Below are positions 11,775 to 64,000 of a DNA stretch of 64,000 nucleotides, in pieces. Both the position numbers and the translations under genes were made by a program. A model generated the notes under the pieces. It was given only the letters and a program-made list of their open reading frames with translations. It was not told where the DNA came from and searched no databases. The DNA is from Isoetes taiwanensis (Eukaryota > Streptophyta > Lycopodiopsida > Isoetales > Isoetaceae), in the NCBI GenBank assembly GCA_021234155.1, contig JAJEKV010000577.1, positions 78,171 to 142,170 of the forward strand. The letters run 5' to 3'. How positions within the stretch are numbered: position 1 is the stretch's first letter; every line of letters begins with the position of its first letter.

Positions 11775-11783
11775 ATAATTGCA

Positions 11784-35384: not shown

Positions 35385-35440
35385 ATATGGCAACAACATC
35401 CTAAGATCCGTGCAATCTATGCATAAAAATACAACTACTA

Positions 35441-37010: not shown

Positions 37011-37028
37011 GCTTAACCCTAACACGCT

Positions 37029-37214: not shown

Positions 37215-37244
37215 GTTTGGCACCATGTTGGAGTTTGGCACCAT
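37192..37244. repeat. Short tandem repeat gagtttggcaccatg, 3 copies
   Basis: Three copies of about 18 bp, each with gagtttggcaccatg. Confidence 0.8.
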
Positions 37245-37935: not shown

Positions 37936-38144
37936 CAAGATAGACAAGACCATTGTTAAGGGCCTTGAAATGAGTGATAAGCCCAATTCAGTACAAAGCT
38001 GGTCACTTGGAGATATATGGTGAACAATATTTACATTACAATACATATATTTCCTTCACATGTTTGTATTCAATATGCTAGAGAAGCACACTTCAATTCT
38101 TCATTGAGCATATTCTAATCATTTTTTTTTTATTTAATCATCGA

Positions 38145-38785
38145 TAATGCAGGCGAGGCATTATGCGAGGCAAGGTGGGGTGCCAAATTGGACCCGCCCA
38201 ATTTGCACCCCAAGTGATGTCAGGCGTGGCAATATGCGAGGCAAGGTGGGGTGCCAAATTGGGCGTTACCCTACACCCCTGGTGATGTGAGCAGGAAGGG
38301 CGTATCACGAGGCAAGGTGGGGTGCCAAATGCCCAATTTGCACCCTAGGTGATGTGCAGGCGAGGCCAAGTATCCACAGCAAGGTGAGCAAGGTGGGGTG
38401 CCAAATTGGAAGCCGCCTAATTTGCACCCCGGTGTGATGTAAAGGCGGTGCAGGCGGGCAAGGTGGGGTGCCAAATGCCCGCCCATTGTAACCCCCAGGG
38501 TGATGTTTGAAGAGGCGGTATGCAGGCAAGGTGGGGTGCCAAATTGGGTGCCACCCAATTTGCACCCCGTGTGATGTCCTGGGTTTAATTATTGATATGC
38601 GGGCAAGGTGGGGTGCCAAATTGAACCCATGCCCAATTTGCACCCCTAGGTGATGTAAGGCGAGGGATTATCGCAGGCAAAGGTGGGCAGGTGGGGTGCC
38701 AAATTGGGCCTGCACGTATTTCAAGTGTGATGTCTTTGCAAATATCTCGAGGGCAAGGTGGGGTGCCAAGTTGGAAACTCCATAC
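38145..38785. repeat. Minisatellite of about 70 bp, 9 copies, hairpin-forming
   Basis: Every copy carries gcaaggtggggtgccaaatt and most then carry gcccaatttgcacccc before gtgatgt. The first and second blocks are complementary (gtgccaaattgggc / gcccaatttgcac), so each unit can fold into a hairpin. Spacer parts vary in length. Minus-strand frames that repeat a histidine/proline-rich peptide follow from the repeat and are not supported as genes. Confidence 0.85.
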
Positions 38786-39387
38786 AACATGACAATGAGG
38801 TAAAGACCTAATGGGGCCAATCTTATTAAGTAAAAGTGAGCCTTGTTAAAGCAAAATACAACATGCACACCCAACAAAAGGTAAAAAAGAAAACAAGGGC
38901 CATGCACCATTGAAGTGGGCATATAAAGCCAATAGAACAAACTATACAAAAAGGAATAAAAACACTAATAAATGATACAAAAGGAATAAAAACACTAAGA
39001 AAGGAGATATGCTAACCTTTGGCAGCCTTGGACATTTCAAAGGAATCAAATGTCATGGTATTGAGGGCAAGGTGACATACAGCGGTGATATATACCGAAT
39101 TCCATAAGGCTCGAAGTTGGCATCCATTTTCAAAATTGCTTGCTATTTATGGGTGGGTTTGAAGATGCTTTTTTTAATTTGTCTGAACATGCGATCAATG
39201 AGTGCAACCTCTATTACGAACCCTAAATAATAGAATTCAACGATGATTGAAGACAATTAAAATAATGAAGCCTCTATTGAAATTAGCATTTGAGTATTTT
39301 TGAGCAAGAAGGATTAGGACCCTGCAATAATGTTGAACCAACTTTAAAATGGATATGAGCATTAGTTGTAGGCGTGCGGTGCGGAAT
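38786..39387. other. Sequence between minisatellite and large array
   Basis: AT-rich, with a short direct repeat (acaaaaaggaataaaaacacta twice near 38945-38998). No gene recognised. Confidence 0.35.
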
Positions 39388-41426
39388 GGGCAACATAGTA
39401 GTTGTAGTTTTATGCATAGATTGCGGATCTTAGAATGTTGTTGCCATATTGACCCACAATGGAAATTGAACCCACGACCTTTTGATCAGAAGTCAAGCGG
39501 CTAATCCCTGCGCTATGGAGCCCTATTAGTGTTGATCTACCATCAAATCTGTTGTCGATAAAAGCTTATCGTGAAGCTATTCAAAAAATTATGGAGTAGC
39601 AGCGAAGATCTTGCATAGACATAAGGGGTACTATTGGTTTAACTTTTACATAGTGCAATTATGTTGAGATGGCGAGTTGGTCTAAAGGCCGGATTAGGTT
39701 ACGGTCAGAAAGGGCATGGGTTCAAATCCCATTCTCAACATAGTAGTTGTATTTTTATGCATAGATTGCGCGGATCTTAGAATGTTGTTGCCATATTGAC
39801 CACGGTGGGAATTGAACCCCGACCTTTTGATCCGAAGTCAAGCGGCTAATCCTGCGCTATGCGACCCTATTAGTGTTGATCTACCATCAAGTCTGTTGTC
39901 GATAAAAGCTTATCGTGAAGCTATTCAAAAGAATTATGGAGTAGTAGCGAAGATCTTGCATAGACACAAGGGTACTATTGGTTTAACTTTTACATAGTGC
40001 AATTATGTTGAGATGGCGAGTTGGTCTAAAGGCGGAGATTAAGGTTACGGTTAGAAAGGGCATGGGTTCAAATCCCATTCTCAACATAGTAGTTGTATTT
40101 TTATGCATAGATTGCCGCGGATCTTAGGATGTTGTTGCCATATTGACCACGGTGGGAATTGAACCCGACCTTTTGATCTTGATAGCCTATGTTGAGATGG
40201 CTAGTCAAAGTCAAGCGCGCTAATCCATAGCTGCGCTATGCGACCCTATTAGTGTTGATCTACCATCAAGTCTGTTGTCGATAAAACCTTATCATCGAAG
40301 CTATTCAAAGAATTATGGAGTAGCGAAGATCTTGCATAGACACCGAGGGGTACTATTGGTTTAACTTTTACATAGTGCAATTATGTTGAGATGGATGGCG
40401 AGTTGGTCTAAAGGCAGATTAAGGTTACGGTCGAAAGGGCATGGGTTCAAATCCCATTCTCAACATAGTAGTTGTATTTTTATGCATAGATTATTGCGGA
40501 TCTTAGAATGTTGTTGCCATATTGACCCACGGTGGGAATTGAACCCCGACCTTTTGATCAGAAGTCAAAGCGGCTAATCCAACTGCGCTATGCAGACCCT
40601 ATTAGTGTTGATCTACCATCAAGTCTGTTGTCGATAAAACCTTATCGGTGAAGCTATTCAAAAAATTATGGGTAGCACTGAAGATCTTGCATAGACAAAG
40701 GGTACTATTGGTTTAACTTTTACATAGTGCAATTATGTTGAGATGGCGAGTTGGTCTAAAGGCGCGGATTAAGGTTACGGTCAGAAAGGGCATGGGTTCA
40801 AATCCCATTCTCAACATAGTAGTTGTATTTTTATGCATAGATTGCGGATCTTAGAATGTTGTTGCCATATTGACCACAGTGGGAATTGAACCCACGACCT
40901 TTTGATCGAAGTCAAAGCGCTAATCCTTTGCGCTATGCAGCCCTATTAGTGTTGATCTACCATCAAGTCTGTTGTCGATAAAACCTTATCATGAAGCTAT
41001 TCAAAAATTATGGAGTAGCACTGAAGATCTTGCATAGACACCAGGGTACTATTGGTTTAACTTTTACATAGTGCAATTATGTTGAGATAGCCGAGTTGGT
41101 CTAAGGCGCCAGATTAAGGTTATGGTACGAAAGGGCATGATTTCAAATCCCATTCTCAACATAGTAGTTGTATTTTTATGCATAGATTGCAAGGATCTTA
41201 GAATGTTGTTGCCATATTGACCACAGTGGGAATTGAACCCACGACCTTTTGATCGAAGTCAAGCGCTAATCCTTTGCGCTATGCAGCCCTATTAGTGTTG
41301 ATCTACCATCAAGTCTATTGTCGATAAAAGCTTATCATGAAGCTATTCAAAAATTATGGAGTAGCACGAAGATCTTGCATAGACACAAAGGGTACTATTG
41401 GTTTAACTTTTACATAGTGCAATTAT

Positions 41427-41506
41427 GTTGAGATGGCGAGTTGGTCTAAGGCGCCAGATTAAGGTTTTGGTTCGAAAGGGCATGATTTCAAATCCCATTC
41501 TCAACA
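41427..41506 (+). tRNA. tRNA-Leu(AAG), one base short in the A box
   Basis: The anticodon arm CCAGA-TTAAGGT-TTTGG is complete. The A box reads TGGCGAGTTGG (one C missing from GGCCGAG, as in most array D copies). The T arm has GATTTCAAATCCC, so the B box has GATTTC in place of GGGTTC. Confidence 0.7.
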
Positions 41507-44500
41507 TAGTAGTTGTATTTTTATGCATAGATTGCACGGATCTTAGAATGTTGTTGCCATATTGACCACAGTGGGAATTGAACCCCGACCTTTTGATCGA
41601 AGTCAAAGCAGCTAATCCACTGCGCTATGCGACCCTATTAGTGTTGATCTACCATCAAGTCAAATTCCTTTTGTCGATAAAACCTTATCATGAAGCTATT
41701 CAAAAGAATTATGGAGTAGCGAAGATCTTGCATAGACACCAAGGGTACTATTGGTTTAACTTTTACATAATGCAATTATGTTGAGATGGCGAGTTGGTCT
41801 AAGGCCGAGATTAAGGTTACGGTCCGAAAGGGCATGGGTTCAAATCCCATTCTCAACATAGTAGTTGTATTTTTATGCATAGATTACACGGATCTTAGAA
41901 TGTTGTTGCCATATTGACCCACGGTGGGAATTGAACCCCGACCTTTTGATCAGAAGTCAAGCAGCTAATCCTTTGCGCTATGCAGCCCTATTAGTGTTGA
42001 TCTACCATCAAGTCATTTGTCGATAAAACCTTATCATCGAAGCTATTCAAAAAATTATGGAGTAGCGAAGATCTTGCATAGACACGGTACTATTGGTTTA
42101 ACTTTTACATAGTGCAATTATGTTGAGATGGCGAGTTGGTCTAAGTGCCGGATTAAGGTTACGATTCAGAAAGGGCATGGGTTCAAATCCCATTCTCAAC
42201 ATAGTAGTTGTATTTTTATGCATAGATTGCGGATCTTAGAATGTTGTTGCCATATTGACCACAGTGGAAATTGAACCCACGACCTTTTGATCAGAAGTCA
42301 AGCAGCTAATCCTTTGCGCTATGCAACCCTATTAGTGTTGATCTACCATCAAGTCTGTTGTCGATAAAACCTTATCATCGAAGCTATTCAAAGTAGCACT
42401 GAAGATCTTGCATAGACACAAGGGTACTATTGGTTTAACTTTTACATAGTGCAATTATGTTGAGATGGCGAGAGTTGGTCTAAAGCCCGGATTAAGGTTT
42501 GGTCGAAAGGGCATGGGTTCAAATCCCATTCTCAACATAGTAGTTGTATTTTTATGCATAGATTGCGGATCTTAGAATGTTGTTGCCATATTGACCACAG
42601 TGGGAATTGAACCCACGACCTTTTGATCCAAAGTCAAAGCGGCGCTAATCCTGCGCTATGCAGCCCTATTAGTGTTGATCTACCATCAAGTCATGTTGTC
42701 GATAAAACCTTATCATGAAGCTATTCAAAAGAATTATGGAGTAGCACGAAGATCTTGCATAGACACAAGGGTACTATTGGTTTAACTTTTACATAGTGCA
42801 ATTATGTTGAGATGGCGAGTTGGTCTAAGGCCTAGATTAAGGTTACGGTCGAAAGGGCATGGGTTCAAATCCCATTCTCAACATAGTAGTTGTATTTTTA
42901 TGCATAGATTGCGGATCTTAGAATGTTGTTGCCATATTGACCCACGGTGGGAATTGAACCCACGACCTTTTGATCGAAGTCAAAGCGGCTAATCCCTTTG
43001 GCTATGCGACCCTATTAGTGTTGATCTACCATCAAGTCCTGTTGTCGATAAAACCTTATCATGAAGCTATTCAAAGAATTATGGAGTAGCACTCGAAGAT
43101 CTTGCATAGACAAAAGGGTACTATTGGTTTAACTTTTACATAGTGCAATTATGTTGAGATGGCGAGTTGGTCTAAAGGCCCGATTAAGGTTACGGTCAGA
43201 AAGGGCATGGGTTCAAATCCCATTCTCAACATAGTAGTTGTATTTTTATGCATAGATTGCCGCGGATCTTAGAATGTTGTTGCCATATTGACCACGGTGG
43301 GAATTGAACCCCGACCTTTTGATCAGAAGTCAAGCGGCGCTAATCCCCTGCGCTATGCAGCCCCTATTAGTGTTGATCTACCATCAAGTCTGTTGTCGAT
43401 AAAAGCTTATCATGAAGCTATTCAAAAAATTATGGGAGTAGCGAAGATCTTGCATAGACAAGGGGTACTATTGGTTTAACTTTTACATAGTGCAATTATG
43501 TTGAGATGGCGAGTTGGTCTAAGGCCCGGATTAAGGTTACGGTCAGAAAGGGCATGGGTTCAAATCCCATTCTCAACATAGTAGTTGTATTTTTATGCAT
43601 AGATTTGCGGATCTTAGGATGTTGTTGCCATATTGACCCACGGTGGGAATTGAACCCACGACCTTTTGATTGAAGTCAAGCGGCTAATCCCCTTTGCGCT
43701 ATGCAGCCCTATTAGTGTTGATCTACCATCAAGTCTGTTGTCGATAAAACCTTATCATGAAGCTATTCCAAAAGAATTATGGAGTAGCACTGAAGATCTT
43801 GCATAGACAAAGGGTACTATTGGTTTAACTTTTACATAGTGCAATTATGTTGAGATGGCGAGTTGGTCTAAAGGCGCGGATTAAGGTTACGGTCAGAAAG
43901 GGCATGGGTTCAAATCCCATTCTCAACATAGTAGTTGTATTTTTATGCATAGATTGCCGCGGATCTTAGAATGTTGTTGCCATATTGACCCACGGTGGGA
44001 ATTGAACCCACGACCTTTTGATCAGAAGTCAAAGCGCTAATCCCGCTGCGCTATGCAGCCCTATTAGTGTTGATCTACCATCAAGTCTGTTGTCGATAAA
44101 ACCTTATCGTGAAGCTATTCAAAAATTATGGAGTAGCGAAGATCTTGCATAGACACCGGGGGTACTATTGGTTTAACTTTTACATAGTGCAATTATGTTG
44201 AGATGGCGAGTTGGTCTAAGGAAAGCCCGGATTAAGGTTACGATTCGAAAGGGCATGGGTTCAAATCCCATTCTCAACATAGTAGTTGTATTTTTATGCA
44301 TAGATTGCCGCGGATCTTAGAATGTTGTTGCCATATTGACCCACGGTGGGAATTGAACCCACGACCTTTTGATCCGAAGTCAAGCAGCTAATCCCTTTGC
44401 GCTATGCGACCCTATTAGTGTTGATCTACCATCAAGTCCTATTGTCGATAAAAGCTTATCGTGAAGCTATTCAAAAAAATTATGGAGTAGCGAAGATCTT

Positions 44501-47500
44501 GCATAGACACCAGGGTACTATTGGTTTAACTTTTACATAGTGCAATTATGTTGAGATGGCCGAGTTGGTCTAAGGCCCGGATTAAGGTTACGGTCAGAAA
44601 GGGCATGGGTTCAAATCCCATTCTCAACATAGTAGTTGTATTTTTATGCATAGATTGCGGATCTTAGAATGTTGTTGCCATATTGACCACAGGGTGGGAA
44701 TTGAACCCCCGACCTTTTGATCAGAAGTCAAGCGCTAATCCTTTGCGCTATGCAGCCCTATTAGTGTTGATCTACCATCAAGTCTGTTGTCGATAAAACC
44801 TTATCATGAAGCTATTCAAAAGAATTATGGAGTAGCGAAGATCTTGCATAGACAAAAGGGTACTATTGGTTTAACTTTTACATAGTGCAATTATGTTGAG
44901 ATGGCGAGTTGGTCTAAAGGCGCCAGATTAAGGTTACGGTTCGAAAGGGCATGGGTTCAAATCCCATTCTCAACATAGTAGTTGTATTTTTATGCATAGA
45001 TTGCACGGATCTTAGAATGTTGTTGCCATATTGACCCACGGTGGGAATTGAACCCCGACCTTTTGATCGAAGTCAAAGCGCTAATCCTTTGCTGCTATGC
45101 GACCCTATTAGTGTTGATCTACCATCAAGTCTGTTTGTCGATAAAACCTTATCGTGAAGCTATTCAAAAGAATTATGGAGTAGCACTGAAGATCTTGCAT
45201 AGACAACAGGGTACTATTGGTTTAACTTTTACATAGTGCAATTATGTTGAGATGGCGAGTTGGTCTAAGGCGGATTAAGGTTACGGTTAGAAAGGGCATG
45301 GGTTCAAATCCCATTCTCAACATAGTAGTTGTATTTTTATGCATAGATTGCGGATCTTAGAATGTTGTTGCCATATTGACCACGGTGGGAATTGAACCCC
45401 CGACCTTTTGATCGAAGTCAAAGCGCTAATCCTTTGCGCTATGCGACCCTATTAGTGTTGATCTACCATCAAGTCATTTGTCGATAAAAGCTTATCATGA
45501 AGCTATTCAAAAAATTATGGAGTAGCACTGAAGATCTTGCATAGACAAATGTTGAGATGGCGAGTTGGGGGTACTATTGGTTTAACTTTTACATAGTGCA
45601 ATTATGTTGAGATGGCGAGGTTGGTCTAAGTGCAATTATGTTGAGATGTTAAGGTTGGTCTCAAAGGTTAAGGGTTACGGTCGAAAGGGCATGGGTTCAA
45701 ATCCCATTCTCAACATAGTAGTTGTATTTTTATGCATAGATTGCCTGCGGATCTTAGAATGTTGTTGCCATATTGACCACGGTGGGAATTGAACCCCGAC
45801 CTTTTGATCGAAGTCAAGCGCTAATCCCTTTGCGCTATGCAGCCCTATTAGTGTTGATCTACCATCAAGTCTTTGTCGATAAAACCTTATCGTGAAGCTA
45901 TTCAAAAAATTATGGAGTAGCGAAGATCTTGCATAGACACAAGGGTACTATTGGTTTAACTTTTACATAGTGCAATTATGTTGAGATGGCGAGTTGGTCT
46001 AAGGCGGATTAAGGTTACGGTCGAAAGGGCATGGGTTCAAATCCCATTCTCAACATAGTAGTTGTATTTTTATGCATAGATTGCCGCGGATCTTAGAATG
46101 TTGTTGCCATATTGACCACGGTGGGAATTGAACCCCGACCTTTTGATCCGAAGTCAAAGCGCTAATCCTTTGCGCTATGCGACCCTATTAGTGTTGATCT
46201 ACCATCAAGTCTGTTGTCGATAAAAAGCTTATCGGTGAAGCTATTCAAAAGAATTATGGAGTAGCACTTGAAGATCTTGCATAGACACGGGGTACTATTG
46301 GTTTAACTTTTACATAGTGCAATTATGTTGAGATGGCGAGTTGGTCTAAAGGCCGGATTAAGGTTACGGTCAGAAAGGGCATGGGTTCAAATCCCATTCT
46401 CAACATAGTAGTTGTATTTTTATGCATAGATTTGCGGATCTTAGAATGTTGTTGCCATATTGACCCACGGTGGGAATTGAACCCACGACCTTTTGATCGA
46501 AGTCAAGCGGCTAATCCGCTGCTATGCTATGCGACCCTATTAGTGTTGATCTACCATCAAGTCTGTTGTCGATAAAACCTTATCGCGAAGCTATTCAAAA
46601 ATTATGGGTAGCAGCGAAGATCTTGCATAGACAAAAGGGTACTATTGGTTTAACTTTTACATAATGCAATTATGTTGAGATGGCGAGTTGGTCTAAAGCT
46701 AGATTAAGGTTACGGTCGAAAGGGCATGGGTTCAAATCCCATTCTCAACATAGTAGTTGTATTTTTATGCATAGATTGCGCGGATCTTAGAATGTTGTTG
46801 CCATATTGACCCACGGTGGGAATTGAACCCCGACCTTTTGATCAGAAGTCAAGCGCGCTAATCCCTGCTGCGCTATGCAGCCCTATTAGTGTTGATCTAC
46901 CATCAAGTCTGTTGTCGATAAAACCTTATCATGAAGCTATTCAAAAGAATTATGGAGTAGCGAAGATCTTGCATAGACACAAAAGGGTACTATTGGTTTA
47001 ACTTTTACATAGTGCAATTATGTTGAGATGGCGAGTTGGTCTAAAGGCGCCCGGATTAAGGTTACGGTCGAAAGGGCATGGGTTCAAATCCCATTCTCAA
47101 CATAGTAGTTGTATTTTTATGCATAGATTGCCGCGGATCTTAGAATGTTGTTGCCATATTGACCACGGTGGGAATTGAACCCCGACCTTTTGATCGAAGT
47201 CAAGCGCTAATCCCAGCTGTGCTATGCAGCCCTATTAGTGTTGATCTACCATCAAGTCTGTTGTCGATAAAACCTTATCATGAAGCTATTCCAAAAATTA
47301 TGGAGTAGCACTTAGCGAAGATCTTGCATAGACACAAAGGGTACTATTGGTTTTAACTTTTACATAATGCAATTATGTTGAGATGGCGAGTTGGTCTAAA
47401 GGCGCCCGGATTAAGGTTACGGTCGAAAGGGCATGGGTTCAAATCCCATTCTCAACATAGTAGTTGTATTTTTATGCATAGATTGCGGATCTTAGAATGT

Positions 47501-48601
47501 TGTTGCCATATTGACCACGGTGGGAATTGAACCCACGACCTTTTGATCCGAAGTCAAGCGCGCTAATCCAACTTTAGCTATGCGGCCCTATTAGTGTTGA
47601 TCTACCATCAAGTCACATTTGTCGATAAAAGCTTATCGTGAAGCTATTCAAAAAATTATGGAGTAGCACTGAAGATCTTGCATAGACACCGGGGTACTAT
47701 TGGTTTAACTTTTACATAGTGCAATTATGTTGAGATGGCGAGTTGGTCTAAAGGCGGATTAAGGTTAAGTCAGAAAGGGCATGGGTTCAAATCCCATTCT
47801 CAACATAGTAGTTGTATTTTTATGCATAGATTTGCGGATCTTAGAATGTTGTTGCCATATTGACCCACGGTGGGAATTGAACCCACGACCTTTTGATCAG
47901 AAGTCAAAGCGCTAATCCAACTGCTATGCGACCCTATTAGTGTTGATCTACCATCAAGTCTGTTGTCGATAAAAGCTTATCATCGTGAGCTATTCAAAAA
48001 ATTATGGTAGTAGCGAAGATCTTGCATAGACAAAGGGTACTATTGGTTTATTGGTTTAACTTTACATAGTGCAATTATGTTGAGATGGCGAGTTGGTCTA
48101 AAGGTTGATTAAGGTTGATATTGGTCGAAAGGGCATGGGTTTCAAATCCCATTCTCAACATAGTAGTTGTATTTTTATGCATAGATTGCGGATCTTAGAA
48201 TGTTGTTGCCATATTGATTGACCCACGGTGGGAATTGAACCCACGACCTTTTGATCGAAGTCAAGATTGGGCTAATCCATGGGTTCAAATCAATTCTCAA
48301 CTGCGCTATGCAGCCCTATTAGTGTTGATCTACCATCAAGTCCTTTTGTCGATAAAAAGCTTATCGGTGAAGCTATTCAAAAAATTATGGAGTACCATCG
48401 AAGATCTTGCATAGACACGCTATTCGGGGTACTATTGGTTTAACTTTTACATAGTGCAATTATGTTGAGATGGTAGAGTTGGTCTAAAGGCGGATTAAAT
48501 TAAGGTTACGGTCAGAAAGGGCATGGGTTCAAATCCCATTCTCAACATAGTAGTTGTATTTTTATGCATAGATTGCGGATCTTAGAATGTTGTTGCCATA
48601 T

Positions 48602-48675
48602 TGACCACAGTGGGAATTGAGCCCACGACCTTTTGATCCGAAGTCAAACGCGCTAATCCACTGCGCTATGCAGCC
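48602..48675 (-). tRNA. tRNA-Arg(TCG), near-intact
   Basis: 74 nt, complete acceptor, D arm and anticodon arm (CTTCGGA). The only departure from consensus is GGGCTCAATTCCC for GGGTTCAATTCCC, which alters T54 in the B box. Confidence 0.85.
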
Positions 48676-49513
48676 CTATTAGTGTTGATCTACCATCAAG
48701 TCCTGTTGTCGATAAAAGCTTATCGTGAAGCTATTCAAAAAATTATGGAGTAGCAGCGAAGATCTTGCATAGACACGGGGTACTATTGGTTTAACTTTTA
48801 CATAATGCAATTATGTTGAGATGGCGAGTTGGTCTAAGGGCCGGATTAAGGTTCTGGTCGAAAGGGCATGGGTTCAAATCCCATTCTCAACATAGTAGTT
48901 GTATTTTTATGCATAGATTGCGGATCTTAGAATGTTGTTGCCATATTGACCACGGTGGGAATTGAACCCCGACCTTTTGATCCGAAGTCAAACGCGCTAA
49001 TCCTCTGCGCTATGCAGCCCTATTAGTGTTGATCTACCATCAAGTCACATTTGTCGATAAAACCTTATCAGCGAAGCTATTCCAAAAAATTATGGAGTAG
49101 CACTGAAGATCTTGCATAGACACCAGGGTACTATTGGTTTAACTTTTACATAGTGCAATTATGTTGAGATGGCCGAGTTGGTCTAAAGGGCCCGGATTAA
49201 GGTTAAGTCAGAAAGGGCATGGGTTCAAATCCCATTCTCAACATAGTAGTTGTATTTTTATGCATAGATTTGCGGATCTTAGAATGTTGTTGCCATATTG
49301 ACCCACGGTGGGAATTGAACCCACGACCTTTTGATCAGAAGTCAAAGCGGCTAATCCCTTTGCGCTATGCGACCCTATTAGTGTTGATCTACCATCAAGT
49401 CCTGTTGTCGATAAAAGCTTATCAGTGAAGCTATTCCAAAGAATTATGGAGTAGCGAAGATCTTGCATAGACAAAAGGGTACTATTGGTTTAACTTTTAC
49501 ATAGTGCAATTAT

Positions 49514-49595
49514 GTTGAGATGGCCGAGTTGGTCTAAGGGCCCAGATTAAGGTTACGGTCAGAAAGGGCATGGGTTCAAATCCCATTCTCAACAT
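49514..49595 (+). tRNA. tRNA-Leu(AAG), full A box, altered anticodon stem
   Basis: It keeps TGGCCGAGTTGG and the 5' stem CCAGA but has TTACGG in place of TTCTGG on the 3' side, which breaks pairing. This TCTGG->TACGG change is present in most array D copies. Confidence 0.65.
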
Positions 49596-52090
49596 AGTAG
49601 TTGTATTTTTATGCATAGATTGCGGATCTTAGAATGTTGTTGCCATATTGACCACGGTGGGAATTGAACCCCGACCTTTTGATCAGAAGTCAAGCAGCTA
49701 ATCCTTTGCGCTATATCGACCCTATTAGTGTTGATCTACCATCAAGTCCTGTTGTCGATAAAACCTTATCATGAAGCTATTCAAAAAAATTATGGAGTAG
49801 CACTGAAGATCTTGCATAGACACGGGGTACTATTGGTTTAACTTTTACATAGTGCAATTATGTTGAGATGGCGAGTTGGTCTAAAGGCATTTGATTAAGG
49901 TTACGGTCGAAAGGGCATGGGTTCAAATCCCATTCTCAACATAGTAGTTGTATTTTTATGCATAGATTGCGGATCTTAGAATGTTGTTGCCATATTGACC
50001 CACGGTGGGAATTGAACCCCGACCTTTTGATCGAAGTCAAGCGCTAATTAATGCAGCCTATTAGTGTTGATCTACCATCAAGTCCATTGTGATCTGTTCT
50101 ACCACCTATTTTGATGGTACCATCGATGTCGAAAGGGCATGGGCATAGTAGTTGTAATGCATAGATTGCGGATCTTAGAAATATTGAAAAATGGGAATGA
50201 ACCCTTACCTTTGATCAGAAGTCAACCCTTTGCTATTAGTGTTGATCTACCATCAAGTTGTTGTCGATAAAACCTTATCGTGAAGCTATTCAAAAAATTA
50301 GCACTGAAGATCTTGCATAGACAAAGGGTACTATTGGTTTAACTTTTACATAGTGCAATTATGTTGAGATGGCCGAGTTGGTCTAAAAGGGAGATTAAAG
50401 GTTACGGTTAGAAAGGGCATGGGTTCAAATCCCATTCTCAACATAGTAGTTGTATTTTTATGCATAGATTGCGCGGATCTTAGAATGTTGTTGCCATATT
50501 GACCCACGGTGGGAATTGAACCCCGACCTTTTGATCAGAAGTCAAGCGGCTAATCCCGCTGCGCTATGCGACCCTATTAGTGTTGATCTACCATCAAGTC
50601 TGTTGTCGATAAAACCTTATCGTGAAGCTATTCCAAAAAATTATGGAGTAGCGAAGATCTTGCATAGACAAAGGGTACTATTGGTTTAACTTTTACATAG
50701 TGCAATTATGTTGAGATGGCGAGTTGGTCTAAAAGGCGGATTAAGGTTACGGTCAGAAAGGGCATGGGTTCAAATCCCATTCTCAACATAGTAGTTGTAT
50801 TTTTATGCATAGATTGCGGATCTTAGAATGTTGTTGCCATATTGACCACGGTGGGAATTGAACCCACGACCTTTTGATCAGAAGTCAAGCGCGCTAATCC
50901 TTTGCTATGCGACCCTATTAGTGTTGATCTACCATCAAGTCTGTTGTCGATAAAACCTTATCGGTGAAGCTATTCAAAAGAATTATGGAGTAGCGAAGAT
51001 CTTGCATAGACAAAGGGTACTATTGGTTTAACTTTTACATAGTGCAATTATGTTGAGATGGCGAGTTGGTCTAAGGGCCGGATTAAGGTTACGGTCAGAA
51101 AGGGCATGGGTTCAAATCCCATTCTCAACATAGTAGTTGTATTTTTATGCATAGATTGCCGCGGATCTTAGAATGTTGTTGCCATATTGACCACGGTGGG
51201 AATTGAACCCCGACCTTTTGATCAGAAGTCAAGCGCGCTAATCCTTTGCGCTATGCAGCCCTATTAGTGTTGATCTACCATCAAGTCTGTTGTCGATAAA
51301 ACCTTATCGTGAAGCTATTCAAAAAAATTATGGAGTAGCACGAAGATCTTGCATAGACACAAAGGGTACTATTGGTTTAACTTTTACATAGTGCAATTAT
51401 GTTGAGATGGCGAGTTGGTCTAAGGCGGATTAAGGTTACGGTAGAAAGGGCATGGGTTCAAATCCCATTCTCAACATAGTAGTTGTATTTTTATGCATAG
51501 ATTGCGGATCTTAGAATGTTGTTGCCCATATTGACCACGGTGGGAATTGAACCCCGACCTTTTGATCCGAAGTCAAAAGCTAATCCTTTGCGCTATGCAG
51601 ACCCTATTAGTGTTGATCTACCATCAAGTCTGTTGTCGATAAAACCTTATCGGTGAAGCTATTCAAAAAGAATTATGGAGTAGCACTCGAAGATCTTGCA
51701 TAGACACAAGGGTACTATTGGTTTAACTTTTACATAGTGCAATTATGTTGAGATGGCGAGTTGGTCTAAAGCCCGATTAAGGTTACGGTCGAAAGGGCAT
51801 GGGTTCAAATCCCATTCTCAACATAGTAGTTGTATTTTTATGCATAGATTGCGGATCTTAGAATGTTGTTGCCATATTGACCACAGTGGGAATTGAACCC
51901 ACGACCTTTTGATCAGAAGTCAAAGCAGCTAATCCTTTGCGCTATGCGACCCTATTAGTGTTGATCTACCATCAAGTCTGTTGTCGATAAAAGCTTATCG
52001 TGAAGCTATTCAAAAAAATTATGGAGTAGCACGAAGATCTTGCATAGACACCAGGGTACTATTGGTTTAACTTTTACATAGTGCAATTAT

Positions 52091-52171
52091 GTTGAGATGG
52101 CCGAGTTGGTCTAAAGCGCCAGATTAAGGTTCTGGTCAGAAAGGGCATGGGTTCAAATCCCATTCTCAACA
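52091..52171 (+). tRNA. tRNA-Leu(AAG), intact (best copy in array D)
   Basis: 81 nt with full A box TGGCCGAGTTGG, anticodon stem CCAGA/TCTGG, loop TTAAGGT, B box GGTTCAAATCC and discriminator A. It differs from 11337-11417 only by AAGCGCC for AGGCGCC and TCAGA for TCCGA in the variable arm. TTTTT follows about 15 nt downstream. Confidence 0.92.
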
Positions 52172-52190
52172 TAGTAGTTGTATTTTTATG
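52105..52190 (+). promoter_or_regulatory. Representative Pol III control elements of the tRNA-Leu gene
   Basis: Internal A box (TGGCCGAGTTGG) and B box (GGTTCAAATCC) are present in this copy, and a TTTTT terminator lies at about 52186-52190. Just upstream, gtgcaattat supplies the CAA motif typical of plant tRNA genes. tRNA-Arg on the opposite strand has an upstream atcaacact but no T run in the convergent spacer. Confidence 0.6.
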
Positions 52191-53264
52191 CATAGATTGC
52201 ATGGATCTTAGAATGTTGTTGCCATATTGACCACAGTGGGAATTGAACCCACGACCTTTTGATCGAAGTCAAGCGGCTAATCCTTTGCGCTATGCATGCC
52301 CTATTAGTGTTGATCTACCATCAAGTCTGTTGTCGATAAAACCTTATCATGAAGCTATTCAAAAAATTATGGAGTAGCGAAGATCTTGCATAGACACAAA
52401 GGGGTACTATTGGTTTAACTTTTACATAGTGCAATTATGTTGAGATGGCGAGTTGGTCTAAAGGCGCGGATTAAGGTTACGGTCAGAAAGGGCATGGGTT
52501 CAAATCCCATTCTCAACATAGTAGTTGTATTTTTATGCATAGATTGCGGGATCTTAGAATGTTGTTGCCATATTGACCACGGTGGGAATTGAACCCGACC
52601 TTTTGATGAAGTCAAAGTCAAGCGGCTAATCATAATCCCTATGCGACCCTATTAGTGTTGATCTACCATCAAAGTTGTCGATAAAAGCTTATCGTGAAGC
52701 TATTCAAAAGAATTATGGGTAGCAGCGAAGATCTTGCATAGACAAAGGGTACTATTGGTTTAACTTTTACATAGTGCAATTATGTTGAGATGGCGAGTTG
52801 GTCTAAGGCGCGGATTAAGGTTACGGAAAGAAAGGGCATGGGTTCAAATCCCATTCTCAACATAGTAGTTGTATTTTTATGCATAGATTGCGGATCTTAG
52901 AATGTTGTTGCCATATTGACCACGGTGGGAATTGAACCCCGACCTTTTGATCCAGAAGTCAAGCGGCGCTAATCCCTTTGCTTGCTATGCAGCCCTATTA
53001 GTGTTGATCTACCATCAAGTCTGTTGTCGATAAAACCTTATCATGAAGCTATTCAAAAAATTATGGAGTAGCACTCAAGATCTTGCATAGACAAAAGGGT
53101 ACTATTGGTTTAACTTTTACATAGTGCAATTATGTTGAGATGGCGAGTTGGTCTAAAGCCCGATTAAGGTTCTGGTCGAAAGGGCATGGGTTCAAATCCC
53201 ATTCTCAACATAGTAGTTGTATTTTTATGCATAGATTGCGGATCTTAGAATGTTGTTGCCATAT

Positions 53265-53338
53265 TGACCACAGTGGGAATTGAACCCACGACCTTTTGAT
53301 CTGAAGTCAAACGCGCTAATCCACTGCGCTATGCAGCC
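53265..53338 (-). tRNA. tRNA-Arg body with TCA anticodon
   Basis: 74 nt, all arms intact, but the anticodon loop reads CTTCAGA, giving anticodon TCA in place of TCG. This is a CpG->CpA change. As written it would pair with UGA. Copies with the same TCA are seen in array A (about 14475 and 14843). Confidence 0.75.
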
Positions 53339-56300
53339 CTATTAGTGTTGATCTACCATCAAGTCTGTTGTCGATAAAAGCTTATCATGAAGCTATTCAA
53401 AAGAATTATGGAGTAGCGAAGATCTTGCATAGACAAAGGGGTACTATTGGTTTAACTTTTACATAGTGCAATTATGTTGAGATGGCGAGTTGGTCTAAGG
53501 GCGCCCGGATTAAGGTTGGTCGAGAAGGGCATGGGTTCAAATCCCATTCTCAACATAGTAGTTGTATTTTTATGCATAGATTGCGCGGATCTTAGAATGT
53601 TGTTGCCATATTGACCACGGTGGGAATTGAACCCCGACCTTTTGATCGAAGTCAAGCGGCTAATCCCTGCGCTATCAGCCCTATTAGTGTTGATCTACCA
53701 TCAAGTCTGTTGTCGATAAAAGCTTATCAGTGAAGCTATTCAAAAGAATTATGGAGTAGCAGCGAAGATCTTGCATAGACAAAAGGGTACTATTGGTTTA
53801 ACTTTTACATAGTGCAATTATGTTGAGATGGCGAGTTGGTCTAAAAGCTAGATTAAGGTTACGGTCGAAAGGGCATGGGTTCAAATCCCATTCTCAACAT
53901 AGTAGTTGTATTTTTATGCATAGATTGCGGATCTTAGAATGTTGTTGCCATATTGACCACGGTGGGAATTGAACCCCCGACCTTTTGATCAGAAGTCAAA
54001 AATGGCTAATCCTTGCGCTATGCGACCCTATTAGTGTTGATCTACCATCAAGTCTGTTGTCGATAAAAGCTTATCAGTGAAGCTATTCAAAAAAATTATG
54101 GAGTAGCACTCAAGATCTTGCATAGACACGGGGGTACTATTGGTTTAACTTTTACATAGTGCAATTATGTTGAGATGGCGAGTTGGTCTAAAGGCGCGGA
54201 TTAAGGTTACGGTAGAAAGGGCATGGGTTCAAATCCCATTCTCAACATAGTAGTTGTATTTTTATGCATAGATTGCGGATCTTAGAATGTTGTTGCCATA
54301 TTGACCACGGTGGGAATTGAACCCACGACCTTTTGATCAGAAGTCAAGCAGCTAATCCCTTTGCGCTATGCGACCCTATTAGTGTTGATCTACCATCAAG
54401 TCCTGTTGTCGATAAAAGCTTATCGAAGCTATTCAAAAATTATGGAGTAGCGAAGATCTTGCATAGACACGGGTACTATTGGTTTAACTTTTACATAGTG
54501 CAATTATGTTGAGATGGCGAGTTGGTCTAAGGGCCCGGATTAAGGTTACGGTCAGAAAGGGCATGGGTTCAAATCCCATTCTCAACATAGTAGTTGTATT
54601 TTTATGCATAGATTGCACGGATCTTAGAATGTTGTTGCCATATTGACCACGGTGGGAATTGAACCCCGACCTTTTGATCAGAAGTCAAGCAAGCGCTAAT
54701 CCCGCTGCTATATGCACCCTATTAGTGTTGATCTACCATCAAGTCACATTTGTCGATAAAAGCTTATATCGAAGCTATTCAAAAAATTATGGGTAGCAGC
54801 GAAGATCTTGCATAGACAAAGGGTACTATTGGTTTAACTTTTACATAGTGCAATTATGTTGAGATGGCGAGTTGGTCTAAGGCGCCCGGATTAAGGTTAC
54901 GGTCAGAAAGGGCATGGGTTCAAATCCCATTCTCAACATAGTAGTTGTATTTTTATGCATAGATTGCGCGGATCTTAGAATGTTGTTGCCATATTGACCC
55001 ACGGTGGGAATTGAACCCGCGACCTTTTGATCGAAGTCAAGCGCTAATCCCTTTATGCTATGCAGCCCTATTAGTGTTGATCTACCATCAAGTCTGTTGT
55101 CGATAAAACCTTATCATGAAGCTATTCCAAAAGAATTATGGAGTAGCACTGAAGATCTTGCATAGACACAAAGGGTACTATTGGTTTAACTTTTACATAG
55201 TGCAATTATGTTTGAGATGGCGAGTTGGTCTAAAGGCGGATTAAGGTTACGGTCGAAAGGGCATGGGTTCAAATCCCATTCTCAACATAGTAGTTGTATT
55301 TTTATGCATAGATTGCCGCGGATCTTAGAATGTTGTTGCCATATTGACCCACGGTGGGAATTGAACCCGCGACCTTTTGATCAGAAGTCAAGCAGCTAAT
55401 CCCTTTGCGCTATGCAGCCCTATTAGTGTTGATCTACCATCAAGTCTGTTGTCGATAAAAGCTTATCGTGAAGCTATTCAAAAAATTATGGAGTAGCGAA
55501 GATCTTGCATAGACACGAGGGGTACTATTGGTTTAACTTTTACATAGTGCAATTATGTTGAGATGGCGAGTTGGTCTAAAGGCGCCCGGATTAAGGTTAC
55601 GGTCGAAAGGGCATGGGTTCAAATCCCATTCTCAACATAGTAGTTGTATTTTTATGCATAGATTGCGGATCTTAGAATGTTGTTGCCATATTGACCCACG
55701 GTGGGAATTGAACCCACGACCTTTTGATCGAAGTCAAGCAGCTAATCCTTTGCGCTATGCAGCCCTATTAGTGTTGATCTACCATCAAGTCTGTTGTCGA
55801 TAAAACCTTATCATCGAAGCTATTCAAAAATTATGGAGTAGCGAAGATCTTGCATAGACAAAGGGTACTATTGGTTTAACTTTTACATAATGCAATTATG
55901 TTGAGATGGCGAGTTGGTCTAAAGGCGCGGATTAAGGTTACGGTTAGAAAGGGCATGGGTTCAAATCCCATTCTCAACATAGTAGTTGTATTTTTATGCA
56001 TAGATTTGCGGATCTTAGAATGTTGTTGCCATATTGACCACGGTGGGAATTGAACCCCGACCTTTTGATCAGAAGTCAAGCGGCTAATCCCGCTGGCTAT
56101 GCAGCCCTATTAGTGTTGATCTACCATCAAGTCTGTTGTCGATAAAACCTTATCATGAAGCTATTCAAAAAAATTATGGGTAGCGATAAAGATCTTGCAT
56201 AGACACAAGGGTACTATTGGTTTAACTTTTACATAGTGCAATTATGTTGAGATGGCGAGTTGGTCTAAGGCCCGGATTAAGGTTACGGTCAGAAAGGGCA

Positions 56301-59300
56301 TGGGTTCAAATCCCATTCTCAACATAGTAGTTTATTTTTATGCATAGATTGCGGATCTTAGAATGTTGTTGCCATATTGACCACGGTGGGAATTGAACCC
56401 ACGACCTTTTGATCCGAAGTCAAAGCGCTAATCCAGCTGCGCTATGCGGCCCTATTAGTGTTGATCTACCATCAAGTCTGTTGTCGATAAAAGCTTATCG
56501 TGAAGCTATTCAAAATTATGGGTAGCACGAAGATCTTGCATAGACACAAGGGGTACTATTGGTTTAACTTTTACATAGTGCAATTATGTTGAGATGGCGA
56601 GTTGGTCTAAAGGCGCCAGATTAAGGTTACGGTCGAGAAAGGGCATGGGTTCAAATCCCATTCTCAACATAGTAGTTGTATTTTTATGCATAGATTGCGG
56701 ATCTTAGAATGTTGTTGCCATATTGACCCACGGTGGGAATTGAACCCCGACCTTTTGATCGAAGTCAAGCGCTAATCCCTTTGCGCTATCGACCCTATTA
56801 GTGTTGATCTACCATCAAGTCTTGTTGTCGATAAAAGCTTATCGCGAAGCTATTCAAAAAAATTATGGAGTAGCGAAGATCTTGCATAGACACAAAGGGT
56901 ACTATTGGTTTAACTTTTACATAGTGCAATTATGTTGAGATGGCGAGTTGGTCTAAGGCGCCCTGATTAAGGTTACGGTCAGAAAGGGCATGGGTTCAAA
57001 TCCCATTCTCAACATAGTAGTTGTATTTTTTTATGCATAGATTGCGGATCTTAGGATGTTGTTGCCATATTGACCACGGTGGGAATTGAACCCCGACCTT
57101 TTGATCAGAAGTCAATGGCTAATCAACTTGCTATGCGGCCCTATTAGTGTTGATCTACCATCAAGTCTGTTGTCGATAAAACCTTATCATGAAGCTATTC
57201 AAAGAATTATGGAGTAGCACTGAAGATCTTGCATAGACACAAGGGTACTATTGGTTTAACTTTTACATAGTGCAATTATGTTGAGATGGCGAGTTGGTCT
57301 AAAGGCGGATTAAGGTTACGGTAGAAAGGGCATGGGTTCAAATCCCATTCTCAACATAGTAGTTGTATTTTTATGCATAGATTGCGGATCTTAGAATGTT
57401 GTTGCCATATTGACCACGGTGGGAATTGAACCCCGACCTTTTGATCGAAGTCAAGCGGCGCTAATCCACTGCGCTATGCAACCCTATTAGTGTTGATCTA
57501 CCATCAAGTCACATTTGTCGATAAAAGCTTATCATGAAGCTATTCCAAAAAATTATGGAGTAGCACTTGAAGATCTTTAGACACCGGGGTACTATTGGAC
57601 AACTTTTAAGGTTGAGATGGCGAGTTACTATTGGCATGGGTTTATTCTCAACATAGTAGTTGTATTTTTATGCATAGATTACTTGCGGATCTTGCAATTA
57701 TGTTGAGATGGCTATTGGACTTTTACATAATGCAATTATGTTTGGTCAGTTGGTCTAAGGCATGATTAAGGTTACGGTTAGAAAGGGCATGGGTTCAAAT
57801 CCCATTCTCAACATAGTAGTTGTATTTTTATGCATAGATTGCAACGGATCTTAGAATGTTGTTGCCATATTGACCCACGGTGGGATCTACCATCAAATTG
57901 AACTTATTATGTTGAAGATCTTGACCTTTTATTTTAAGTTTTGAGTTGGTCAAAGTCAAGGCAGTCAGAAAGGGCATGGGTTCAAAATCAACATAGTAGT
58001 TGTATTTTTATGCATAGATTGCGGATCTTAGGATGTTGTTGCCATATTGACCCACGGTGGGAATTGACCTTTTGATCTAACCATCGACCCTATTAGTGTT
58101 GATCTACCATCAAGTCTGTTGTCGATAAAACCTTATCATGAAGCTATTCAAAAAATTATGGAGTAGCACTCAAGATCTTGCATAGACACAAGGGTACTAT
58201 TGGTTTAACTTTTACATAGTGCAATTATGTTGAGATGGCGAGTTGGTCTAAAAGCCGGATTAAGGTTACGGTCAGAAAGGGCATGGGTTCAAATCCCATT
58301 CTCAACATAGTAGTTGTATTTTTATGCATAGATTGCGGATCTTAGAATGTTGTTGCCATATTGACCACGGTGGGAATTGAACCCCGACCTTTTGATCGAA
58401 GTCAAGCGGCTAATCCAACTGCGCTATGCGACCCTATTAGTGTTGATCTACCATCAAGTCTGTTGTCGATAAAGCTTATCATGAAGCTATTCAAAAAATT
58501 ATGGAGTAGCACTGAAGATCTTGCATAGACACAAGGGTACTATTGGTTTAACTTTTACATAGTGCAATTATGTTGAGATGGCGAGTTGGTCTAAAGGCCC
58601 GGATTAAGGTTACGGTCAGAAAGGGCATGGGTTCAAATCCCATTCTCAACATAGTAGTTGTATTTTTATGCATAGATTTGCGGATCTTAGAATGTTGTTG
58701 CCATATTGACCACGGTGGGAATTGAACCCACGACCTTTTGATCGAAGTCAAGCGGCGCTAATGAGCTATGCGACCCTATTAGTGTTGATCTACCATCAAG
58801 TCTGTTGTCGATAAAAGCTTATCATCGAAGCTATTCCAAATAATTATGGAGTAGCACTGAAGATCTTGCATAGACACAAGGGTACTATTGGTTTAACTTT
58901 TACATAATGCAATTATGTTGAGATGGCGAGTTGGTCTAAGGCGCGGATTAAGGTTACGGTTCGAAGGGCATGGGTTCAAATCCCATTCTCAACATAGTAG
59001 TTGTATTTTTTATGCATAGATTGCGGATCTTAGAATGTTGTTGCCATATTGACCACGGTGGGAATTGAACCCCGACCTTTTGATCGAAGTCAAGCAGCTA
59101 ATCCAGCTGCGCTATGCAGACCCTATTAGTGTTGATCTACCATCAAGTCTGTTGTCGATAAAAGCTTATTGTGAAGCTATTCAAAAATTATGGAGTAGCG
59201 AAGATCTTGCATAGACACAAGGGTACTATTGGTTTAACTTTTACATAGTGCAATTATGTTGAGATGGCGAGTTGGTCTAAAGCCCGGATTAAGGTTACGG

Positions 59301-62300
59301 TTAGAAAGGGCATGGGTTCAAATCCCATTCTCAACATAGTAGTTGTATTTTTATGCATAGATTGCGGATCTTAGGATGTTGATCTTAGAATGTTGTTGCC
59401 ATATTGACCCACGGTGGGAATTGAACCCGCGACCTTTTGATCAGAAGGCATGTTCGCTAATCATAGTAGTTGTATTTTTATGCATACCCTTATGTTGTGT
59501 TGATCTACCATCAGTCTTGTTGTCGATAAAATCTTATCATGAAGCTATTCAAAAGAATTATGGGTAGCACTGAAGATCTTGCATAGACACAAAGGGTACT
59601 ATTGGTTTTAACTTTTTACATAATGCAATTATGTTGAGATGGCGAGTTGGTCTAAAAAGATTAAGGTTACGGTAGAAAGGGCATGGGTTCAAATCCCATT
59701 CTCAACATAGTAGTTGTATTTTTATGCATAGATTGCGGATCTTAGAATGTTGTTGCCATATTGACCACGATGGGAATTGAACCCACGACCTTTTGATCGA
59801 AGTCAAGCGGCTAATCTGGCTATGCGACCCTATTAGTGTTGATCTACCATCAAGTCATTTGTCGTTGAAGCTATTCAAAAAAAATTATGGAGTAGCACGA
59901 AGATCTTGCATAGACACCGGGTACTATTGGTACTATTGGATGGGTTTAACATTTTACATGCATTTTGCGGATATGTTGTTGAGATGGGAATTGAACCCCG
60001 ACCTTTTTTGTCAAATTGGTCTAAGCTATTAGTGTTGATCTACCATCCCTATTGTCGATAAAACCTTTAAGCTATTCAAGAATTATTGATTACCATCAAG
60101 TGCAGAAAAGGGGCATGGGTTCAAATCCCATTCTCAACATAGTAGTTGTATTTTTTATGCATAGAACGGATCTTAGAATGTTGTTGCCATATTTTATGCA
60201 TAGTGCGCTATGCGGCCCTATTGAGATGGATAAAATTGAATCTAACCTATTCAAATTCTCCAACATGGGTTCAAATCCCATTTGTATTTTTTTATGCATA
60301 GATTGCACGGATCTTGGATGTTGTTACATATTGACCACAATGGGAAATTGAACCCACGACCTTTTGATCCAGAAGTCAAGCGCTAATCCCTTTGCGCTAT
60401 GCAGCCCTATTAGTGTTGATCTACCATCAAGTCACATTGTCGATAAAACCTTATCGCCGAAGCTATTCAAAATTATGGAGTAGCACGAAGATCTTGCATA
60501 GACACAAGGGTACTATTGGTTTAACTTTTACATAGTGCAATTATGTTGAGATGGCGAGTTGGTCTAAAGCTAGATTAAGGTTACGGTCAGAAAGGGCATG
60601 GGTTCAAATCCCATTCTCAACATAGTAGTTGTATTTTTATGCATAGATTGCGGATCTTAGAATGTTGTTGCCATATTGACCACGGTGGGAATTGAACCCA
60701 CGACCTTTTGATCGCTAAGTCAAATGGCTAATCCAAGCTCCCTATTCAAAAGCTATGCAACCCTATTAGTGTTGATCTACCATCAAGTCTGTTGTCGATA
60801 AAACCTTATCATGAAGCTATTCAAAAGAATTATGGGTAGCTTGATCGAAGATCTTGCATAGACACAAAGGGTACTATTGTTTAACTTTTACATAATGCAA
60901 TTATGTTGAGATGGCGAGTTGGTCTAAAGGCGCCGGAATTAAGGTTTGGTCAGAAAGGGCATGGGTTCAAATCCCATTCTCAACATAGTAGTTGTATTTT
61001 TATGCATAGATTGCGCGGATCTTAGAATGTTGTTTGCCATATTGACCCACGGTGGGAATTGAACCCACGACCTTTTGATCAGAAGTCAAGTCAAGCGGCG
61101 CTAATCCCTAATGCTATGCGGCCCTATTAGTGTTGATCTACCATCAAGTCACATTGTCGATAAAACTTATCTATTGTCGATAAAAATCGAAGCTATTCAA
61201 AATTATGGAGTACTTGAAGATCTTGCATAGACACAAAGGGTACTATTGGTTTAACTTTTACATAGTGCAATTATGTTGAGATGGCGAGTTGGTCTAAAGC
61301 CGGATTAAGGTTACGGTCAGAAAGGGCATGGGTTCAAATCCCATTCTCAACATAGTAGTTGTATTTTTATGCATAGATTGCACGGATCTTAGAATGTTGT
61401 TGCCATATTGACCCACGGTGGGAATTGAACCCCGACCTTTTGATCCGAAGTCAAAGCGCTAATCCGCTGCGCTATGCAGCCCTATTAGTGTTGATCTACC
61501 ATCAAGTCTGTTGTCGATAAAAGCTTATCAATGAAGCTATTCAAAAGAATTATGGGTAGCACTCGAAGATCTTGCATAGACACAAGGGGTACTATTGGTT
61601 TAACTTTTACATAGTGCAATTATGTTGAGATGGCGAGGAGTTGGTCTAAAGCCGGATTAAAGGTTAAGGTTGAAAGGGCATGGGTTCAAATCCCATTCTC
61701 AACATAGTAGTTGTATTTTTATGCATAGATTGCCGCGGATCTTAGAATGTTGTTGCCATATTGACCACAATGGGAATTGAACCCCGACCTTTTGATCAGA
61801 AGTCAAGCGGCTAAATCGCTGCGCTATGCGACCCTATTAGTGTTGATCTACCATCAAGTCTGTTGTCGATAAAAGCTTATCGTGAAGCTATTCAAAAAAT
61901 TATGGAGTAGCACTGAAGATCTTGCATAGACACAAGGGGTACTATTGGTTTAACTTTTACATAGTGCAATTATGTTGAGATGGCGAGTTGGTCTAAGGTG
62001 CGGATTAAGGTTACGGTAGAAAGGGCATGGGTTCAAATCCCATTCTCAACATAGTAGTTGTATTTTTATGCATAGATTTGCGGATCTTAGGATGTTGTTG
62101 CCATATTGACCACAGTGGGAATTGAACCCACGACCTTTTGATCAGAAGTCAAGCGCTAATCCCTTTGCGCTATGCAGCGGCCCTATTAGTGTTGATCTAC
62201 CATCAAGTCTTGTTGTCGATAAAACCTTATCGTGAAGCTATTCAAAAAATTATGGGTAGCTGAAGATCTTGCATAGACACAAAAAGGGTACTATTGGTTT

Positions 62301-64000
62301 AACTTTTACATAGTGCAATTATGTTGAGATGGCGAGTTGGTCTAAAGCAATTATTAAGGATTAAAAGGTTACGGTAGAAAGGGCATGGGTTCAAATCCCA
62401 TTCTCAACATAGTAGTTGTATTTTTATGCATAGATTGCGGATCTTAGAATGTTGTTGCCATATTGACCACGGTGGGAATTGAACCCCGACCTTTTGATCC
62501 AGAAGTCAAAGCGCGCTAATCCTTTGCGCTATGCAGCCCTATTAGTGTTGATCTACCATCAAGTCATTTGTCGATAAAAGCTTATCGGTGAAGCTATTCA
62601 AAAAAATTATGGAGTAGCACGAAGATCTTGCATAGACACGGGGTACTATTGGTTTAACTTTTACATAGTGCAATTATGTTGAGATGGCGAGTTGGTCTAA
62701 AGCCGGATTAAGGTTACGGTCAGAAAGGGCATGGGTTCAAATCCCATTCTCAACATAGTAGTTGTATTTTTATGCATAGATTGCGGATCTTAGAATGTTG
62801 TTGCCATATTGACCACGGTGGGAATTGAACCCACGACCTTTTGATCCGAAGTCAAGCGCGCTAATCCCTTTGCGCTATGCGACCCTATTAGTGTTGATCT
62901 ACCATCAAGTCACATTTGTCGATAAAAGCTTATCATCGAAGCTATTCAAAAAATTATGGGTAGCACTGAAGATCTTGCATAGACACAAGGGTACTATTGG
63001 TTTAACTTTTACATAGTGCAATTATGTTGAGATGGGCGAGTTGGTCTAAAGCCCGGATTAAGGTTACGGTCGAAAGGGCATGGGTTCAAATCCCATTCTC
63101 AACATAGTAGTTGTATTTTTATGCATAGATTGCCGCGGATCTTAGAATGTTGTTGCCATATTGACCACAGTGGGAATTGAACCCCGACCTTTTGATCCGA
63201 AGTCAAATCGCGCTAATCCACTGCGCTATGCAGCCCTATTAGTGTTGATCTACCATCAAGTCCTGTTGTCGATAAAAGCTTATCAGCGAAGCTATTCAAA
63301 AGAATTATGGAGTAGCACGAAGATCTTGCATAGACAAAAGGGTACTATTGGTTTAACTTTTACATAATGCAATTATGTTGAGATGGCGAGTTGGTCTAAG
63401 GCGCCCGGATTAAGGTTACGGTCAGAAAGGGCATGGGTTCAAATCCCATTCTCAACATAGTAGTTGTATTTTTATGCATAGATTGCCGCGGATCTTAGAA
63501 TGTTGTTGCCATATTGACCACGGTGGGAATTGAACCCCGACCTTTTGATCCGAAGTCAAGCGCTAATCCACTGCGCTATGCAGCCCTATTAGTGTTGATC
63601 TACCATCAAGTCCTGTTGTCGATAAAAGCTTATCAGTGAAGCTATTCAAAAAAAAATTATGGAGTAGCGAAGATCTTGCATAGACACCCGGGGTACTATT
63701 GGTTTAACTTTTACATAGTGCAATTATGTTGAGATGGCGAGTTGGTCTAAGGCGCAGATTAAGGTTACAGTCCGAAAGGGCATGGGTTCAAATCCCATTC
63801 TCAACATAGTAGTTGTATTTTATGCATAGATTGCACGGATCTTAGAATGTTGTTGCCATATTGACCACGGGAATTGAACCCCGACCTTTTGATCCAAAGT
63901 GCAATAAGCTAATCCAGCTGTCTTTACCCTGACTATTAGTGTTGATCTACCATCAAAGTCTGTTGTCGATAAAAAGCATCATGAAGCTAATCAAAGAATT

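Follow-up and report, generated by a model that had tools for sequence, protein, structure and literature searches.

The window analysed here is a stretch of 64,000 nucleotides that forms the final 64 kb of contig C305 (142,170 bases) in the 1.66 Gb assembly of Isoetes taiwanensis, which comprises 1110 contigs. In agreement with a plant source, the assembly has 91 matches to the NAC domain family, which is regarded as plant-restricted, and this family gave no signal in any of 14 control genomes. From position 39391 to position 64000, the last base of both window and contig, it consists of a tandem array whose unit carries one tRNA-Leu(AAG) and one tRNA-Arg(UCG) gene in convergent orientation. 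We located 69 spacer anchors in this array, allowing at most three errors per anchor, as well as 65 Leu and 62 Arg T-arms within 24.6 kb. Leu genes lie on the plus strand and Arg genes on the minus strand, so that their 3' ends face each other as they do in cleaner copies elsewhere, and the two kinds alternate nearly strictly, with exactly one Leu T-arm in reverse orientation. Tandem Repeats Finder (TRF) scores of 14676 and 11729 are far beyond chance. The original prediction of an array of more than 24 kb that reaches the end of the window and holds one gene of each kind per convergent unit is hereby confirmed. Counted from T-arms, the gene density of about 5 per kb exceeds the threshold of at least 3 tDNAs per kb used for plant tDNA clusters, which in the excerpts of PMC11700998 refers to high-confidence tRNAscan-SE genes.

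The same unit occurs in opposite orientation further left in the window. Two such units, with Leu on the plus strand's complement and the Arg-body gene on the plus strand, lie at 11069-11790, short arrays at 14314-17190 and 24245-26633, and broken units at 33832-35522. Between the short opposite arrays, long purine-rich stretches of the GGAAAA type are found at 17886-19795 and 31388-33520, over which GC skew and AT skew both reach about 0.6 in 2-kb bins.

The unit is read best on cleaner contigs. At 105-124 kb of C271 and in parts of C1022 it measures 352-353 bp and contains a tRNA-Leu(AAG) gene of 83 bases and a tRNA-Arg(UCG) gene of 74 bases, both full-length and at regular places. The predicted unit length of about 347 bp accordingly holds as the repeat period of the window as assembled (346-347 bp), whereas the true unit is probably 353 bp long. 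In four clean loci (L003, L004, L007 and L023) 101 Rfam tRNA matches lie above the cut-off, the best of them with 68 bits. The window as assembled represents full-length gene pairs of this kind poorly: of its 84 Rfam matches, 63 fall in the array, where T-arm or anchor counts predict 127-138 genes. Many of the window genes thus fail tRNA scoring in their assembled form. Among the best-scoring Leu(AAG) copies is the one at 52090-52172 on the plus strand (54.5 bits), and a cleanly read Arg(UCG) copy lies at 48602-48675 on the minus strand (63.9 bits). The top tRNA score of the window, 68.2 bits, belongs to an Arg-body gene at 53265-53338 on the minus strand, whose anticodon TCA would read UGA. 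ARAGORN, run with its bacterial setting, called 46 genes in the array and 10 further left with mixed anticodons, labels that mean little on corrupted copies.

Clean units are not identical units. The 15 clean units of C271 carry 7.7 substitutions per unit relative to the consensus. A 63-base Leu core is matched exactly by 2 of these 15, by 3 of 10 units of C1022, by 7 of 48 of C740 and by 0 of 64 of the window. Arg-body genes in six clean loci (L003-L007 and L023) have the anticodon TCG in 51 and TCA in 6 cases according to ARAGORN. The consensus Leu gene is followed by a TTTTT run 10 nt downstream, and the local word containing it is present in 66 copies in the window array, while the consensus Arg gene of the 353-bp unit has no four-T run for 238 nt downstream, a distance that spans the entire Leu gene in antisense. 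Single-strand folding of the consensus genes gave a z-score of -2.48 for Leu and of -0.94 for Arg, whose fold is not a full cloverleaf; Arg copies of the array nonetheless reach up to 68 bits in Rfam.

The unit is present on eight contigs, C305 and seven others, in both orientations. A 23-base spacer word has 423 exact copies genome-wide (299 and 124 on the two strands), compared to none for the reversed control word, and a 32-base word from the Leu 3' end has 388. C305 accounts for 80 and C740 for 62 of the 423 spacer words, C271 for 78 of the 100 places listed out of this total, and C18 carries a short array. On the 8.8-Mb contig C1070, all four stretches sampled between position 8,812,000 and the contig end at 8,844,606 were array, which suggests that the array continues between them. 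C305, C740 and C1070 break off within a unit, and the last exact spacer word of C271 lies 354 bases before its contig end, so the arrays are probably longer than assembled. C305, C740 and C1044 have in common the left flank and the short opposite arrays. C305 and C740, perhaps together with C1044, may therefore represent one and the same locus, perhaps as uncollapsed haplotypes, which makes the haploid copy number uncertain.

A 34-base word from the Leu 5' half has 84 exact matches genome-wide. We examined nine places outside the arrays known at that point: two, on C1070, turned out to belong to array, another six (on C223, C671, C908, C909, C941 and C985) are Leu(AAG) genes lacking the flanks of the unit, and one, on C1100, is a single partial unit. 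Given these dispersed genes, the plant does not rely on array copies for Leu(AAG). Four of the six were read by inspection (C908, C909, C941 and C985) and carry the T-stem pair GTGGG/CCCAC in place of the ATGGG/CCCAT of the array; as both sides of the pair have changed, the founder Leu gene was probably a working one. All 59 exact matches of a 30-base Arg core lie on array-carrying contigs, and an approximate query pattern for a dispersed Arg(UCG) gene, whose letters may be wrong, gave no match, so that other Arg(UCG) genes may exist. The partial unit at C1100:9269760-9270037 (L033) lies inside a 24.7-Mb contig, is 279 bp long with 91.8 % identity and includes the Leu gene; it is possibly a relic or a founder copy. 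tRNA-derived SINEs are dispersed copies with a tRNA-like head, an unrelated body and a simple-repeat tail. We ruled out such an element here, since the unit consists of two complete opposed tRNA genes repeated head-to-tail and only one of the nine outside places held a lone partial unit.

The letters of the window array deviate from the 353-bp unit in a highly uneven manner. Measured on 64 window units of 300-420 bp, taken from 68 anchor intervals, positions at most one base away from CG or CHG sites show 0.141 indels per base compared to 0.019 elsewhere (about 7-fold), 0.051 transversions compared to 0.004 (about 13-fold) and 0.072 transitions compared to 0.004. Of 48 hot positions, 36 fall within the unit's 85 CG/CHG positions (Fisher p 5e-16). 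The other 12 are not within one base of such a site, several being two bases off or common to other contigs, and some of them are probably real variants. Recurrent forms include TTCTGG read as TTACGG in the Leu gene in 49 of 64 window units, TTACGG being also present in 26 of 52 units at 131-151 kb of C271, and CAGC read as CGAC in 19 of 57 array units. C740 errs at other sites than the window, with CACGG at one site in 48 of 48 units compared to 5 of 55 in the window; different errors at like contexts are expected from strand-dependent base-calling of modified cytosines. Random raw-read noise was ruled out, as two 30-base words free of CG/CHG sites have 56 and 55 exact matches on the array strand.

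The noise also differs between and within contigs. C271 is clean in its 15 units at 105-124 kb (median 353 bp) and noisy towards its end, in 52 units at 131-151 kb (median 348-349 bp); C1070 (14 units), C1044 (7 units) and 7 opposite units of the window are noisy as well, C1022 (10 units) only slightly. Away from CG/CHG sites, the 161 units of the noisy long arrays (window, C740 and C271 131-151 kb) show 0.0073 substitutions per base in the spacer, 0.0034 in Leu and 0.0035 in Arg, compared to 0.0153, 0.0132 and 0.0116 in the clean set of 39 units, while indels away from these sites still amount to 0.9-2.3 % per base in the noisy arrays. Given their lower substitution rates, the noisy arrays appear to be the more uniform ones, which are those least polishable by short reads. 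Purifying selection on the tRNA bodies is unsupported by the clean copies, where gene and spacer rates are close; the wider gap in the noisy arrays is in part due to spacer variants such as that at position 38, which add to the spacer rate.

The left flank served as a control outside the array. Positions 34456-39390 match C740:32038-36965 over about 4.9 kb with 92.5 % identity, and C740 continues from this flank into array; 1403 bases from position 36200 are also found in C1044 (92 %), with outer copies of lower identity on many contigs. In a three-way comparison of these 1403 bases, long stretches of agreement are followed by differences clumped at CG/CHG sites. With contexts taken from C740, 63 of the 93 differences private to the window fall in the 286 CG/CHG columns (of 1429), an enrichment that persists but is weaker with contexts from the window letters. 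C740 has 33 private differences (17 at CG/CHG) and C1044 has 32 (17 at CG/CHG). The flank changes take the forms seen in the array, CCTGG becoming CACGG and GCAGCC becoming GCGACC.

Taken together, we read the array as a recombination-homogenised, CG/CHG-methylated and mostly silent tDNA satellite whose apparent gene decay is mostly base-calling error, and we put the probability of this reading at about 75 %. A convergent, structurally sound tRNA-Leu(AAG)/tRNA-Arg(UCG) pair within about 353 bp would have been the founder, multiplied head-to-tail most likely via unequal exchange, with continued exchange or conversion keeping the units nearly uniform. The error pattern suggests methylation of the array: if the errors mark methylated cytosines, it is methylated at both CG and CHG sites, and it would probably be largely silent in the sequenced tissue. 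The gene damage in the window would then most likely consist of miscalls at methylated cytosines in what we infer to be nanopore data, left in place because a long uniform repeat can hardly be polished with short reads. Misread cytosines and missing polishing would account for both the decayed-looking genes and the 346-bp period in C305, and the actual DNA of the array is most likely far more intact than the contig letters. The six UGA-reading Arg-body genes beside 51 regular ones in clean loci would also be easier to tolerate in a silent array. Among the three options offered originally, the evidence would favour a silenced satellite that arose by recombination-driven expansion, and we found nothing that points to selection for expression. 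Letter variants of this contig, suggested originally as tracers in tRNA-seq, would be a poor guide, as the indels and unusual anticodons seen in the window cluster at CG/CHG sites and are probably miscalls.

If the letters were correct, the array would be a real satellite of decayed tRNA pseudogenes with mutations gathered at methylated cytosines. CG and CHG sites of methylated DNA do mutate faster, and forms shared between contigs, such as TTACGG, could be inherited. Old deamination alone would yield only C-to-T changes, however, and does not fit the enrichment of indels and transversions next to that of transitions. The remaining 76 % of the unit is nearly uniform, the identical miscall forms occur in the non-array flank, and C740, which has the same left flank, differs sharply from the window at the CACGG site. 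On these grounds we rejected real decay as the main cause and regard it as quite improbable. As evidence for methylation in the past, deamination is likewise ambiguous. The clean copies show an about fourfold enrichment at CG/CHG sites for C-to-T/G-to-A changes and for other changes alike, so that there is no clean deamination signature and long-term methylation is not proven.

It is unlikely, too, that the pair was amplified because the plant benefits from additional Leu(AAG) and Arg(UCG) tRNA, either generally or in one tissue. The high-scoring full-length genes of the clean copies and the T-run past Leu would agree with such a role, and the Ser-Tyr-Tyr (SYY) cluster of Arabidopsis, expressed in the root cap despite its methylation according to the excerpts of PMC12308677, offers a precedent. 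Against it speak the Leu(AAG) genes at six of the nine outside places, substitution rates that are hardly lower in the genes than in the spacer of clean copies, the missing T-run near Arg and the tolerance of UGA-reading and other anticodon variants. We consider it very improbable that the copy number is a product of assembly, the assembler having multiplied a few units or included one locus more than once. The flank common to C305, C740 and partly C1044, which may be one locus, and the contigs that end in array could point that way, but C271, C1022 and the end of C1070 carry arrays as well, and contigs ending in a repeat usually indicate that the repeat is under-assembled.

As an extension of the satellite reading, the convergent layout itself might silence the array, an idea drawn from the sequence that we regard as rather unlikely. 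Pol III transcripts starting at Arg would run through the whole Leu gene in antisense, and the pair would give rise to double-stranded RNA that supplies small-RNA-directed methylation at CG/CHG sites; the absence of a nearby T-run allows such read-through and silencing but does not demonstrate it. If true, this would explain how hundreds of copies of a tDNA pair exist without a flood of tRNA, and why UGA-reading copies are tolerated.

Several known systems resemble the array in part, as far as the excerpts of the cited papers describe them. The SYY cluster on Arabidopsis chromosome 1 comprises 27 units in about 40 kb (PMC10701932), is methylated in the order CG > CHG > CHH and is silent in most tissues with expression in root-cap cells (PMC12308677); Arabidopsis clusters are described as methylated and mostly silent in both sources. 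Like our array it is a head-to-tail repeat with two tRNA kinds per unit, although methylation and silence are known there and methylation is only deduced here. In contrast to SYY, the present array has other isotypes, facing genes within 353 bp, a spread over eight contigs and more than 400 exact spacer words. Across 69 angiosperm genomes, Pro, Tyr-Ser and Ile clusters are named, with 28 Ile genes in maize as the longest stretch (PMC11700998), and Arabidopsis also has Pro and Cys clusters, the latter with units of about 420 bp (PMC10701932) and varying unit number (PMC11700998, PMC10701932). The Pro, maize Ile and Arabidopsis Cys clusters likewise consist of similarly sized tandem units that contain full tRNA genes, but they are smaller and have a single isotype. 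Outside plants, tDNA clusters of fifty and more are reported for Nematostella and teleosts, with mention of mixed-isotype and tail-to-tail pairs and of Entamoeba tandem arrays (PMC2888827), and a human tRNA repeat has 9-43 units of 7.3 kb (PMC4041453). These belong to other lineages and have other units than the 353-bp Leu/Arg unit; judging from the excerpts, high copy number and mixed or convergent pairs have precedents when taken by themselves.

Within open-licence PMC papers we found Pro, Tyr-Ser, Ile and Cys clusters but no Leu/Arg tDNA array in plants, in line with the initial impression that a convergent two-isoacceptor unit at such copy number was unfamiliar. The array is best read as a large variant of the silenced Arabidopsis-type tRNA clusters, the convergent Leu/Arg unit being the part without a counterpart in these papers. 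It would rank among the largest plant tRNA gene arrays in the literature searched and would offer a natural setting in which to examine the silencing of amplified Pol III genes by plants. General basecallers reportedly become less accurate on natively methylated plant DNA, for which polishing with short reads is recommended (PMC9749173, PMC7501810); the excerpts of these and the other papers searched contained no description of miscall forms like those of the window or of their effect on tRNA arrays. A methylated repeat in a nanopore assembly can look like decayed genes and mislead tRNA annotation, variant tracing and age estimates. Conversely, such errors may be of use in archived assemblies as a rough footprint of methylation.

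Besides those in the six clean loci, Arg-body genes with the would-be UGA suppressor anticodon TCA occur once in C1044 (L008) and once in the window, so that TCA is carried by the window, L003, L005, L007, L008 and L023; as TCG contains a CG site, some of these calls could be errors. The Leu anticodon is CAG instead of AAG in 15 of 50 Leu calls of clean arrays (4 of 11 in L003, 2 of 14 in L004, 5 of 11 in L007 and 4 of 14 in L023), and CAG is absent among the Leu calls of the window array at 39-64 kb.
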